Part shown: positions 9,208-12,660 of the stretch, piece after piece
Position numbering within the stretch: position 1 is the stretch's first letter
Layout of the letters: every line of letters starts with the position of its first letter
Source of the DNA: Flavobacteriales bacterium
Lineage (GTDB): Bacteria; Bacteroidota; Bacteroidia; Flavobacteriales_D; Crocinitomicaceae
Reading direction: 5' to 3'
Assembly: GCA_947470515.1 (NCBI GenBank)
Contig: CANITF010000012.1
Location: 1-64,000, forward strand
DNA length: 64,000 bases
Notes under the pieces: generated by a model
The model's database searches: none
Told to the model about the DNA's origin: nothing
What the model saw: only the letters and a program-made list of their open reading frames with translations
Translations under genes and position numbers: made by a program

Positions 9208-9846
9208 TCATAGTAGGCGAATAATAATTTTCTGTTTTCCCAAATGAAATTTATCCTTCGCCCAATTATATGGATTTTGAATAATGTAATTGGAGATTCT
9301 ATCGAAATCATTTTGTGACCGAATAATGTGGTCGTAAAAAAGAGGTTGCCAACCAAAATCAATTCCATTTTTTCGGGCAAATGTTGTTACAGAAGATTTA
9401 TATCCACGAATAATAGAGGATAGGTTTTTGGATTGTGGTGAGAATTGGTTTTTATATTCGGAATGGGTTTTATTGTCATTTTCATTATCAATGGTAGAGG
9501 CGCAATGCATTGCGCCTCTACCATTGATTGCCAATGAACCCGATAATCCCGCATTATAATCATTTTCACCGATAATCATTATTCCATGAATATGATTCGG
9601 CATAACAACAAATTCTCCCAATATTAAATTCATATCAGGACGAATATTAATAGCGTTAAACCATTCAGAATAGGCGATTTTTCCAATTTCGGTTGGTTTA
9701 AAAATTCCTTTGGAATCAATATTCCCGAAATAATTTTCTCTGTTTTTGGTGCAAATTGTCACAAAATACATTCCATCATTTGCATAATTCCAATTTTGCA
9801 ATCGTGCAGAGGCAATTCTATATTTGTTCTTGAATAATTCTGACAT
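9208..9846 (-). CDS. RAYT-like (IS200/Y1 superfamily) transposase
   Basis: 212-aa REP-associated tyrosine transposase-like protein. It has the HUH metal site MPNHIHGI (H85, H87) and the family C-terminal pattern ISNYIIQNPYNWAKD; Y149 in IIRGYKSS is a candidate nucleophile, but that position is not always tyrosine in relatives. The ATG at 9846 (MSELFKNKYR) fits the family start; the frame runs open to 9954 without another ATG. Such proteins nick single-stranded DNA at small palindromes. Residues 107-120 are encoded by a perfect 40-bp palindrome (separate entry). No terminal repeats of a complete IS were found. Probably a domesticated or self-mobile single-copy element. Confidence 0.85.
   Translation of the reverse strand: MSELFKNKYRIASARLQNWNYANDGMYFVTICTKNRENYFGNIDSKGIFKPTEIGKIAYSEWFNAINIRPDMNLILGEFVVMPNHIHGIMIIGENDYNAGLSGSLAINGRGAMHCASTIDNENDNKTHSEYKNQFSPQSKNLSSIIRGYKSSVTTFARKNGIDFGWQPLFYDHIIRSQNDFDRISNYIIQNPYNWAKDKFHLGKQKIIIRLL
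9488..9527. repeat. Perfect 40-bp REP-like palindrome inside the RAYT gene
   Basis: Left half 9488-9507 and right half 9508-9527 are exact reverse complements, with core GGCGCAATGCATTGCGCC. G+C-rich palindromes of this kind are the typical substrates of RAYT proteins. This copy is within the coding sequence, encoding residues 107-120, in a low-complexity linker between the HUH motif and the FSPQSKNLSSIIRG segment. Confidence 0.9.
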
Positions 9847-9937: not shown

Positions 9938-9971
9938 AAAAAAAAAATCCTCAAACAATGTCTGAGGATTT
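9938..9971 (-). terminator. Terminator of tRNA-Leu
   Basis: On the minus strand AAATCCTCA (9971-9963) pairs with TGAGGATTT (9953-9945), followed by a run of T. It begins 12 nt beyond the tRNA 3' end. Confidence 0.85.
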
Positions 9972-9982
9972 TAAGTTTTCAG

Positions 9983-10064
9983 TACCTCGGGCCGGAATCG
10001 AACCGGCACACCCGAAAGTACAGGATTTTGAATCCAGCGCGTCTACCAGTTCCGCCACCGAGGC
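9983..10064 (-). tRNA. tRNA-Leu (anticodon CAA)
   Basis: 82-nt class II tRNA read on the minus strand. Acceptor GCCTCGG pairs with CCGAGGT (G-U at the first pair) plus discriminator A; the T arm is GCCGGTTCGATTCCGGC; there is a long variable arm; the anticodon loop TTCAAAA gives CAA, decoding UUG. The anticodon stem (CTGGA/TCCTG) contains one U-U mismatch. CCA is not encoded. The promoter and the first 13 nt of this gene are repeated at 10481-10561. Confidence 0.95.
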
Positions 10065-10132
10065 ATTTTTCGCTTTGGACACCCAACGAATCAGGTAAAG
10101 CGGAGGCGAAGTTACTACTTTTCTTGAAATCT
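10052..10132. repeat. 81-bp direct repeat, copy 1 (tRNA-Leu 5' end and its leader)
   Basis: Identical to 10481-10561 at 80 of 81 positions (C/T difference at 10107). It spans tRNA positions 1-13, the leader, the -7 element and most of the spacer. It flanks the GIY-YIG gene on the tRNA side. Confidence 0.95.
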
Positions 10133-10136
10133 ACAA
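10107..10136 (-). promoter_or_regulatory. tRNA-Leu promoter
   Basis: On the minus strand TTG (10136-10134), 19 nt, then TAACTTCG (10114-10107), a 7/8 match to TAnnTTTG. Transcription would start about 38 nt before the tRNA 5' end. Confidence 0.6.
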
Positions 10137-10157
10137 GAGAGAGCATAAAAGAAAATA

Positions 10158-10445
10158 TTAGATTGAATATTTTGTCATGAGACTTAATCCTAATTCAGGC
10201 GATTCTTTCAGTTCCAAGATATATTTCCTTGATTTCATTCGTTTAACGTGCCTTTCAATACGGATTGCCGTGGTTATATTATCTACTTCAAGAGAGTAGA
10301 ATATAACCCAATCATCTGCTTTTGCTGTATAACTGTTTGGATATGTTTTATCTAAATGATTTTTATATCTGAAGTTTAAATCTTGACAGCTTCCGATGTA
10401 AAATCGATTAATTGAAGAAGAAAAAAGGATGTAACAAAATGCCAT
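10158..10445 (-). CDS. GIY-YIG endonuclease-family protein
   Basis: 95-aa single-domain GIY-YIG nuclease (UPF0213-like size). The first strand FCYILFSS and the second FYIGSCQDL form the GIY-YIG pair (here CYI...FYIG), followed by RYKNHL and the ERHVKRMKSRK helix; E in IERHVKR is the likely metal-binding residue. I chose the ATG at 10445 (MAFCYILF). The upstream open frame to 10511 is only the translated duplicated tRNA fragment. The gene lies between two copies of the tRNA-Leu 5' region, so it looks like an inserted element. Action on DNA is inferred from the fold; its target is unknown. Confidence 0.85.
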   Translation of the reverse strand: MAFCYILFSSSINRFYIGSCQDLNFRYKNHLDKTYPNSYTAKADDWVIFYSLEVDNITTAIRIERHVKRMKSRKYILELKESPELGLSLMTKYSI

Positions 10446-10456
10446 TTTTTTAGTGT

Positions 10457-10493
10457 GTCTACCATCCCGATGCATCGGGACCGCCACCGAGGC
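10457..10493 (-). pseudogene. tRNA-Leu 5' fragment interrupted by a 16-bp palindrome
   Basis: On the minus strand 10493-10481 reproduces tRNA-Leu positions 1-13 (GCCTCGGTGGCGG); then the 16-bp palindrome TCCCGATGCATCGGGA (10480-10465) replaces AAC; then TGGTAGAC (10464-10457) matches tRNA positions 17-24, after which similarity stops in the D arm. A remnant left by an insertion event. Confidence 0.85.
10465..10480. repeat. 16-bp perfect palindrome TCCCGATGCATCGGGA
   Basis: Self-complementary over all 16 bases, with a central ATGCAT as in the RAYT palindrome at 9488-9527. It sits at the exact point where the tRNA fragment is interrupted. Confidence 0.9.
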
Positions 10494-10561
10494 ATTTTTC
10501 GCTTTGGACACCCAACGAATCAGGTAAAGCGGAGGTGAAGTTACTACTTTTCTTGAAATCT
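10481..10561. repeat. 81-bp direct repeat, copy 2
   Basis: Second copy of the tRNA-Leu 5'/leader segment, upstream of the GIY-YIG gene in its reading direction. It differs from copy 1 at a single base (10536) which changes the -7 box from TAACTTCG to TAACTTCA. Confidence 0.95.
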
Positions 10562-10564
10562 CAA
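10536..10564 (-). promoter_or_regulatory. Duplicated tRNA promoter in front of the GIY-YIG gene
   Basis: TTG (10564-10562), 18 nt, TAACTTCA (10543-10536) on the minus strand. If active it would transcribe the tRNA fragment and the nuclease gene. The -33 TTG is outside the repeat and was supplied by the flanking sequence. Confidence 0.4.
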
Positions 10565-10593: not shown

Positions 10594-12660
10594 TTATTTA
10601 ACTAATTTCTGAACTGCTTTCTTAGAACCCATTTCAACTTCTACGAAATAAATACCTGCATTCAAATCATTCAGTCCTGTCAGTTCAATTGTTTCATGGT
10701 TGGAACTTCCTGTGAACTCTTGAACCCTAATTGTTCTTCCTGAAGCATCAGACAAAGTAATTGTTCCATTTTCATTCAACTTATTATTCAGATTAATGGA
10801 AATAATAGATTCAAATGGATTCGGATAAACATTGAATATTACTTCAGAAATTTCTTTGACACCCGTCATACTGCAACCATTTAACGTTCCTGGCATATTT
10901 ATATCTAACCAAGTTATTCGGCGCGTTAACCAATCCTTTAACCGTTGAACTTCTTCCGCATACGTTTGAGACGGTGCTTGAACTTCTGGTGTTCCAGTGG
11001 AAGCGCCCAAGTGTCCCCAAACTAGATAATGCCATTCTTGACTCTCATTAAGAAGCGAAGCAATCGAATCAACTTTTTGGTGCATATAGGATTCGCTCAA
11101 AATAGTTCTTCGCAAATCATCATAACGACAACGTAACTCATTGGCAAATAAAGTGTCTTCTAACAAACGAATGTACCAACCCGGAGCATTCACGTCCTGC
11201 CCATTCAAATTATTATACATCCATTGAGATCCATCTTCCGAACCTCCCCACATATCTTTTAAAGCCCAATCAAAATCCCAAACTGGTCCTTCATGTAGTT
11301 TTCTATACGAGCCATCTGCATGATCTTTGTCTTTGTATAAGAACCGACTTTTCTTGAATCCATCGCCATTTCTTGATACTTCATTCACAATGAAATAGTC
11401 AATGAAACTTTCGGTATGAATAAACTTTCGATAACCAACAGCAGTATCCGCAAAATTTGGTGAATATAACGCTGTTTCAAACTCATTCATGAAATTTTGA
11501 ATGTAGGTTTGTTGCTGCAAAACGATTGTTTCTGGCTTTGGATAATAATAGACAAAATGAACATCTAACCCAGGGAAACCAATTGGAGAGAAATTGGATT
11601 GCCAAGAGTTTGAATTGTCCCAATAATCAATTTTTATAATATATCCACCAGTCACATCTTGACCTACAATTTCCAACGGTTCTAATTTTGAGATATCTAC
11701 CCTATTTGAATCCCTTTTAATTTTTTCTGCCAACATATAGATTCCCTGATATTCACCATTCATAACTACATCAACAAAATGACTTCTTACAGAATAATGT
11801 CCCATGGAGTCGAATAAATTAAATGGAAGTGCATTGCGAGCAAATGATTTATCATTGTAATTTGCTAAGAGTAACCAATCACTTTCAGCAGGCATTCCAA
11901 GTATGGAAGAATCAATGGCAACTCCAGCATTGTCTTGTAGCTCGAAATTATATGGTTTTTGAGGAAGAGAAAGCGAATAATTTCCACGGTATTCAATTCC
12001 AATTTTTCCATTGTATTCGTTGTATGGGTCCACCAAATGGTTTCTATTTCCAACACCATTATAAATAATCCCCATATCAGCTATAATTTTTATATCAACA
12101 TCAATGGCTTGACTATTTGTGTTGATTACTACAATAGGTAAATCTGATTCTGAAAATTGAAAATAGGTCGCAGGTGTTGAACCAAAAGTAATCGTCCAAT
12201 CAATTACAACACCTTCATCGGCACCATAATTGTCGGCAATTCTAAGATACCAAATACCATTTGGATTCTGACCATTATTTACAGCGCCCATTTGACCCAT
12301 AGGCATAAATGTTCCTGTAAAAGGAGCCGTTCCAGTTTGAATACTTGTTGGAGCCGTAACATTAAAACAGGTGTTTGTCATGTTATCATCTCCACCACCA
12401 ATGCCCGAAGAAAGATTTCTTACTGTTCCATCTGGCGCAACAATTTGTATTGTAATATCCGCTAAATAGGTATGAGTCAAATTCAAACAAATTGTCTCCA
12501 CTCCAAAAGTGGTCGTGTTAATACTTGTTTGAGGAACGGAAACGGTTAACGGAATATCTATTGTCTGGTAATCTAAAATTGGACCAGTGCCACCAGTAAA
12601 GGTTTGAGCGTAATTAACACTAAATAACAGAAGTGAATATAAAAGAGCAGTAATTTTCAT
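10594..12660 (-). CDS. Secreted P-domain / CotH-kinase protein with T9SS sorting tail
   Basis: 688-aa exported protein in four parts: signal peptide (1-18, ends NYAQ); a proprotein-convertase P-domain-like beta sandwich (about 20-160; THTYLADITIQIVAPDG and NGIWYLRIADNYGADEG); a CotH-type protein-kinase-like domain (about 165-590; QKPYNFELQD, YQGIYMLAEKIKRD, GPVWDFDWAL); and a type A T9SS C-terminal sorting domain (611-688; VYPNPFESI to KLVK). CotH proteins phosphorylate secreted proteins at serine in spores; in Bacteroidota the substrate is unknown. The tail predicts secretion by the type IX system and cell-surface attachment. Transcribed alone. Confidence 0.9.
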   Translation of the reverse strand: MKITALLYSLLLFSVNYAQTFTGGTGPILDYQTIDIPLTVSVPQTSINTTTFGVETICLNLTHTYLADITIQIVAPDGTVRNLSSGIGGGDDNMTNTCFNVTAPTSIQTGTAPFTGTFMPMGQMGAVNNGQNPNGIWYLRIADNYGADEGVVIDWTITFGSTPATYFQFSESDLPIVVINTNSQAIDVDIKIIADMGIIYNGVGNRNHLVDPYNEYNGKIGIEYRGNYSLSLPQKPYNFELQDNAGVAIDSSILGMPAESDWLLLANYNDKSFARNALPFNLFDSMGHYSVRSHFVDVVMNGEYQGIYMLAEKIKRDSNRVDISKLEPLEIVGQDVTGGYIIKIDYWDNSNSWQSNFSPIGFPGLDVHFVYYYPKPETIVLQQQTYIQNFMNEFETALYSPNFADTAVGYRKFIHTESFIDYFIVNEVSRNGDGFKKSRFLYKDKDHADGSYRKLHEGPVWDFDWALKDMWGGSEDGSQWMYNNLNGQDVNAPGWYIRLLEDTLFANELRCRYDDLRRTILSESYMHQKVDSIASLLNESQEWHYLVWGHLGASTGTPEVQAPSQTYAEEVQRLKDWLTRRITWLDINMPGTLNGCSMTGVKEISEVIFNVYPNPFESIISINLNNKLNENGTITLSDASGRTIRVQEFTGSSNHETIELTGLNDLNAGIYFVEVEMGSKKAVQKLVK

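Follow-up and report, generated by a model that had tools for sequence, protein, structure and literature searches.

The question raised by this locus is how a small nuclease gene came to lie between two copies of the promoter and 5′ end of a single tRNA-Leu gene, and how an intact tRNA came to be retained beside it. The locus is part of a stretch of 64,000 nucleotides from a Flavobacteriales bacterium (Crocinitomicaceae), which was analysed as a whole and is referred to below as the window; G and L numbers designate genomes and loci. The answer favoured here, which is considered probable, is that the nuclease belongs to an intron-less homing-type element of Bacteroidota tRNA (occasionally tmRNA) genes, about 0.3-0.4 kb in size, which attacks these genes and supplies the severed part. 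Such an element would consist of a single-domain GIY-YIG gene and a replacement tRNA part together with the promoter or terminator belonging to it, and would usually bear a short palindrome where it meets the displaced part of the host gene.

The tRNA-Leu locus and its nuclease-free counterparts

Read on the minus strand, the window presents in order a CotH gene, a promoter, the broken 5′ end of a tRNA-Leu, a GIY-YIG gene, the promoter again and an intact tRNA-Leu(CAA). The CotH-domain gene (10594-12660, minus strand; PF08757) is the same neighbour in nuclease-free genomes and was used as the anchor for finding nuclease-free sites. The two copies of the promoter region, each with tRNA positions 1-13 and both on the minus strand, lie at 10481-10561, where the copy belongs to the broken tRNA and adjoins the CotH gene as in nuclease-free sites, and at 10052-10132; they form direct repeats of 81 bp with a single mismatch at 10107, extendable to 88 bp at 95% identity. 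A preliminary description of this DNA had placed a GIY-YIG gene between duplicated promoter and tRNA 5′ segments, and this was confirmed, the nuclease ORF (10158-10445, minus strand; 95 aa from its ATG) matching PF01541 with an E value of 2.4e-8. The fragment had been taken to represent tRNA positions 1-24; it is indeed the 5′ end of tRNA-Leu, but is made up of positions 1-13, then a perfect 16-bp palindrome, TCCCGATGCATCGGGA (10465-10480, strand not applicable), inside the D arm, and then the D-arm continuation TGGTAGACACACT (10452-10464, minus strand), which can be aligned with the intact tRNA to about position 29. The open frame 5′ of the nuclease ATG reads broken tRNA sequence, as had been stated, and gives 117 aa from a GTG as against 95 aa from the ATG.

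The intact tRNA-Leu(CAA) (9982-10064, minus strand) was called by ARAGORN and by Rfam (RF00005, 53.4 bits), and a terminator-like hairpin was identified by eye on its 3′ side (9940-9972, minus strand). It is the sole Rfam match above the gathering score between 9800 and 10700; three further matches in this interval, with E values of 0.33-0.43, fall well under their gathering scores, and no intron family, group I introns included, is found among the matches to the interval at E values up to 1. The intact copy stands next to the insert rather than forming an intron-interrupted gene, and the earlier proposal that an insertion linked to the nuclease entered the D arm, with a functional-looking tRNA kept, is supported. 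The 429-bp insert contains one ORF of at least 60 aa, a second ORF on the opposite strand merely overlapping it, in agreement with the earlier statement that no integrase is present; a scan of six proteins of the window, among them the nuclease, gave no match to an integrase family.

The query consisting of the tRNA plus its promoter was matched in 22 of the 26 genomes of the genus. The element is present in four of them (G000, G005, G007 and G023), and the occurrence of the same arrangement in the last three means that it is not an artefact of a single contig, assembly error having been put forward as a possible refutation. A decayed relic of the element remains in G003. The empty site that the preliminary description had anticipated in sister genomes was found as a nuclease-free tRNA beside the CotH gene in ten genomes (G002, G006, G008, G009, G010, G011, G016, G018, G022 and G024), where the end of the CotH match lies 148-189 bp from the tRNA 3′ end, as against 616 bp in the window; genomes without a nuclease hit in which the CotH match or the called tRNA was missing (G012, G013, G015, G017, G020, G021 and G025) were not counted as nuclease-free. 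One unit is carried by G000 and by G007, two tandem units 429 bp apart by G023, and two units, one of them degraded, by G005. Vertical inheritance may account for the element in these four closely related genomes, and nuclease-free sites could also arise if the element were lost cleanly between the direct repeats; to judge by their sequences, the promoter copies of the window are too similar for donor to be told from host.

Residues Y15, G17, R25, H29 and E63 are invariant across 21 relatives of the nuclease, and dN/dS values of 0.06-0.32 among five nuclease copies of the window's genus clade point to purifying selection, the gene therefore having been kept functional. A neighbouring gene of the window (9208-9843, minus strand), for which there was no Pfam match, is presumably RAYT/IS200-like, to judge by its motifs, and a perfect 42-nt palindrome at 9487-9528 is read in its frame. 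This gene has a match in G005 and a gapped match in G007, whereas the corresponding locus of G023 gave none.

tRNA genes, palindromes and isotypes across Bacteroidota

When a profile of 21 nuclease relatives was searched in 395 sampled genomes of the phylum Bacteroidota, matches to the family were obtained in 254. Among the matches listed, 109 loci were examined, of which 29 were delivered by the profile search (the window's own excluded) and 80 were fetched by place; these loci are not independent, many of the host species being related. A tRNA was called by ARAGORN at 91 of the 109, on the strand of the nuclease in every case (91/91), and lay within 300 bp of the nuclease at 90 and within 100 bp at 70; the rough chance of a tRNA within 100 bp on one side and one strand is 0.06%, assuming 45 tRNAs in 4 Mb. 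The tRNA is upstream of the nuclease in 86 of the 90 loci within 300 bp, which is the opposite polarity to that of the window, and the commonest layout is the mirror image of the window, with an intact tRNA, the nuclease and then a broken tRNA copy bearing a palindrome in one arm. Promoter capture was dropped as a general explanation, since most nucleases lie downstream of the tRNA. The isotypes at the 90 loci are Asn (25), Asp (13), Val, Met and Gly (10 each), Ala (7), Arg (4), Pro and Phe (3 each), Ser (2) and Thr, Ile and Lys (1 each). No tRNA was called at the other 18 phylum loci, but blast detected tRNA fragments at 15 of these, all on the strand of the nuclease and some at E values near 0.01; remnants were added by eye at L081 and L121, and neither blast nor eye revealed a tRNA fragment at L083, which lies at a contig end.

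Nearer relatives provided 29 loci, counting that of the window (L023, a relic, fell under the score cut); a tRNA was called at 25, one of them broken (L035), and the strand was the same in 25 of 25. A set of 80 named loci was obtained with a Leu-type query, being the best 80 of 147 passing stretches from a tighter alignment of the Leu-type clade and biased to tRNA-Leu; here a tRNA was called at 67, all on the strand of the nuclease (67/67). Seven of these loci (L147-L150, L158, L167 and L186) repeat others and are included in the tRNA-strand and flank counts, and the palindrome and tree counts changed little when redone without them. At three named loci (L181, L203 and L212) the gene concerned is a tmRNA; a broken tmRNA 5′ end with palindromes and the nuclease behind it were recognised by eye, and an intact tmRNA comes next. 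Palindrome-bearing broken tRNAs at L053 (1119-1213) and L055 (1155-1235, both in nuclease-strand coordinates) were called as tRNA-Lys(TTT) by ARAGORN; these calls are likely to be false, the palindrome apparently mimicking an anticodon arm.

A palindrome was scored where a stem of at least 6 stood on a foot reading YCC[CG]. Among nuclease genes for which a tRNA was called within 620 bp, and with repeated loci removed, 152 of 197 are adjoined by such a palindrome, as against 10 of 535 control windows situated 700-1455 bp downstream (160 of 205 and 10 of 562, respectively, before removal). The commonest is TCCCGAT...ATCGGGA, and the sequence differs between lineages. A strict palindrome pattern is dispersed, occurring in 10 of 14 genomes, the two richest of which have 22 and 28 copies, and its backwards control was absent from 13 genomes and found once in one. 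With repeats removed, and by an automatic arm assignment that at times chose terminator hairpins and is thus approximate, the palindrome lies in the D arm at 16 of 27 loci with the tRNA downstream (the type of the window), and at loci with the tRNA upstream it lies in the later arms at 142 of 174 and in the D arm at 7. At L024 (1120-1370), L278 (just before the intact tRNA) and L016 (1139-1310), palindrome-tagged tRNA copies stand 5′ of an intact tRNA with no nuclease between them, and palindrome plus duplication can therefore exist without a nuclease in the copy. Small ORFs arranged in series and parted by a repeat containing TCCCGATAGCTATCGGGA were seen at L263, L264 and L265 (G029), a layout that we take to resemble an integron cassette array.

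The association with palindromes bears on an alternative to the homing-type element, namely that the nuclease acts on ssDNA and recognises the palindrome hairpin in a REP/RAYT- or Ssn-like manner, units moving as ssDNA between palindromes and landing in the arms of structured genes. The Ssn nuclease family cleaves ssDNA site-specifically. This alternative, although judged doubtful, would agree with the frequency of palindromes beside the nucleases relative to control windows, with the existence of palindrome-bearing tRNA copies without a directly attached nuclease and with the retention of the whole tRNA sequence by intact tRNAs beside the nuclease. When 20 palindrome regions were hand-picked from the genome scan, however, a family nuclease was present in none (three had a called tRNA, and the others lay between small ORFs or genes), and the variation of the palindrome by lineage also speaks against it, as does the clustering of isotypes, which suggests that the target is set by tRNA sequence and not by the palindrome. 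On a tree of 167 nucleases (repeats removed), isotype required 33 changes, as against 109.0 when shuffled, and none of 200 shuffles was as low, the nuclease trees resting on 79-81 columns with single branches weak. In an 88-row phylum subset, 25 changes were required for isotype (59.3 shuffled) and 38 for host family (58.3 shuffled). Nuclease lineage tracks tRNA isotype more closely than host family; the Pro and Ser isotypes showed no clustering on the 167-row tree.

At least two nuclease copies were present in 28 of the 109 phylum loci, arrays including one of five copies at a 315-bp period and others with units of 381 bp, and tandem spacings place the unit size mostly at about 0.3-0.43 kb. 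In six loci (L047, L051, L055, L087, L111 and L175), the tRNA adjacent to the nuclease is identical to another, non-adjacent copy, the other copy of L047 having a weak nuclease remnant downstream. A target wholly inside the tRNA would therefore still be cut in the occupied allele, and self-cutting would have to be kept in check by other means; a target that extends from the tRNA into the flank may be compatible with the identical copies. No relative of the nuclease was found when viral contigs, plasmids and phages were searched with the Leu-type query.

Native and foreign flanks of the tRNA genes

In the Flavobacterium genome G200, one terminator follows the intact tRNA-Ala and a different one follows the broken copy. 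The empty tRNA-Ala site of G276, which has similar sequence to G200 on both sides, has a tRNA flank that scores 0.92 against the flank after the broken copy and 0.50 against the flank beside the nuclease. The intact tRNA-Ala of G200 has a T-stem pair unlike that of G276 and a CCA end, and the broken copy has the G276 stem; in G459, a filled site with the same foreign flank and CCA as G200, the intact copy has a G276-type stem, and the swapped T stem is therefore no general mark. G276 was the sole usable empty site among 30 loci read in a tRNA-Ala search of 150 genomes. At L280 (G558; near 1519 on the reverse strand), the 3′ part of a tRNA-Ala was observed on its own before a native-type terminator flank, in a stretch where no intact tRNA was called.

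For tRNA-Arg, in another genus, seven of 20 returned loci were read, and five of them were empty. Compared with the filled G389, the empty flank of G676 scored 0.90 to the broken-copy flank and 0.61 to the nuclease-side flank, and that of G655 scored 0.74 and 0.53, respectively. G664 leaned weakly towards the broken-copy flank (0.71 against 0.62), and G675 (0.66 against 0.70) and G670 (0.72 against 0.74) did not discriminate between the two. A search for empty tRNA-Pro sites gave no convincing orthologous flank in its results table. For tRNA-Ala (G200 and G276) and tRNA-Arg (G389 compared with G676 and G655), these flank scores indicate that the nuclease-side part is foreign and that the native 3′ part of the host was left broken. 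The preliminary description, which was supported as regards its insertion, retained tRNA and empty sites, had overlooked the palindrome, the phylum-wide family, the opposite polarity of most members and the fact that the broken part, where testable, appears to be the host's own.

Across 92 single-nuclease loci with the tRNA upstream, the two flanks differ in 44 (<0.65), agree in 38 (at least 0.8) and are intermediate in 10, although a repeated locus or two may sit in the agreeing and intermediate groups; unrelated flanks gave a mean score of 0.47 and a 95th percentile of 0.59. A long target-site duplication was dropped as a general rule, as the flanks differ in 44 of the 92 loci. Local duplication alone would also give agreeing flanks, and a further alternative supposes a local tandem duplication of the tRNA by ordinary recombination, with the nuclease caught between the copies by chance and kept for a role in the host. 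The 38 agreeing loci, the exact periods of the tandem arrays and the purifying selection on the nuclease are in keeping with such a duplication, which is nevertheless improbable in view of the 44 loci with differing flanks, the native-type flank of the broken copy for tRNA-Ala (G276) and tRNA-Arg (G676 and G655), the isotype-clustered nuclease lineages that span host families and the shared strand of nuclease and tRNA wherever a tRNA was called. Integrase-type integration into the tRNA gene, by an enzyme since lost or encoded at another place, recalls integrative elements in its tRNA target and restored gene part but is very unlikely indeed, given units of mostly about 0.3-0.43 kb, a window insert with one ORF of at least 60 aa, the existence of both 5′- and 3′-restoring forms and sites spread over the D, anticodon and T arms (as approximately assigned).

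Proposed mechanism and known systems

For the homing-type element favoured here, the nuclease would cut an empty tRNA gene in one of its arms, and the break would be mended by recombination with a copy already occupied, through tRNA homology on both sides, so that the element is copied in. This repair would rebuild one tRNA and leave the other part behind the palindrome, and arrays would result from repeated rounds or from unequal crossing-over. In the window, the cut would have fallen in the D arm, promoter and tRNA 5′ end would have come with the element, and the upstream remnant would represent the native 5′ end. Essential tRNA genes seem, from the arrangements compared, to be hit directly and repaired with the carried part; as a rule, homing nucleases are concealed within an intron or intein, which spares the gene that is hit. 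More tentatively, the single-domain GIY-YIG nuclease and the palindrome might together constitute a minimal mobile element of a class not described before, spreading through hairpin-forming RNA genes (tRNA and tmRNA) all over the phylum, in which the palindrome would mark or drive insertion, possibly by an ssDNA route, and the carried gene part would pay the host's cost.

The nearest known system is SegB of the T-even phages, described in the relevant passages of its source as a free-standing GIY-YIG homing endonuclease that lies next to tRNA genes, cuts within them and co-localises with tRNAs in phages, with tandem amplification of tRNA-plus-nuclease units via homologous recombination and with the limit on self-cutting noted as an open question (PMC13096335). 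The likeness thus lies in a GIY-YIG enzyme beside tRNA genes and in tandem units of tRNA and nuclease, whereas SegB is a phage gene with no isotype preference reported in those passages and the present nucleases are found in bacterial genomes, have a single domain of about 75-95 aa and cluster by isotype; unlike SegB, the Bacteroidota elements also bring along a tRNA part as replacement, usually accompanied by a palindrome (PMC13096335). In the mobile ORFs of the fungal mitochondrial genes atp6, atp9, cox2 and nad3, as presented in the corresponding passages, an endonuclease ORF brings a foreign gene end that restores the target, the displaced native end still matches close relatives, and the atp9 example is a GIY-YIG enzyme (PMC3630166). 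A foreign part that restores the gene and a native part that is displaced recur here for tRNA-Ala (G200/G276) and tRNA-Arg (G389 against G676 and G655); the fungal ORFs, however, concern C-terminal ends of mitochondrial protein genes, in contrast to either end of bacterial tRNA and tmRNA genes, where most junctions are marked by a palindrome (PMC3630166). The cutting and amplification known from SegB, combined with the end replacement of the fungal mobile ORFs, would account for the anatomy of the element. There is likewise a resemblance to free-standing homing endonuclease genes in the catalytic domain (PF01541) and in the empty alleles (ten tRNA-Leu, one tRNA-Ala and five tRNA-Arg genomes), cutting being presumed.

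Rickettsia palindromic elements are short palindromes dispersed in genomes, and neither they nor REP/RAYT systems are known to us to include a tRNA duplication that is linked to a palindrome and has a GIY-YIG gene. The REP/RAYT palindromes are, according to the part of the source that treats them, also short and dispersed in genomes (PMC3733652). No description of the present arrangement in bacterial chromosomes was found among the papers listed, as covered by titles and the opening parts of abstracts, with few subscription papers among them, SegB being the nearest; the matching passages of PMC1564403 likewise hold nothing on it. If true, the proposed mechanism would account for many of the small GIY-YIG genes and for tRNAs that are broken or wrongly called, as well as for hybrid tRNA genes and for tandem arrays; the Bacteroidota family would provide a set of natural nucleases, apparently specialised by isotype, for testing.

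An AlphaFold model of the window nuclease has a mean pLDDT of 95.5. The nearest solved structures by sequence are those of the small GIY-YIG proteins of UPF0213 (1zg2 and 1ywl, from Bacillus halodurans and Enterococcus faecalis), which we take to be COG2827, followed by SLX1, with I-TevI a weak match; a fold search with the model returned nothing at an E value of 0.001 or better, its first two rows being the UPF0213 structures. Six GIY-YIG domain matches were found in the window's own genome, and a tRNA was called in the stretch read for the window's match alone; the link to tRNA genes therefore belongs to this subfamily. At L002 (1320-2110 in nuclease-strand coordinates; G000), a different GIY-YIG gene has tandem repeats, each of about 51 bp, on its flanks in place of a tRNA.
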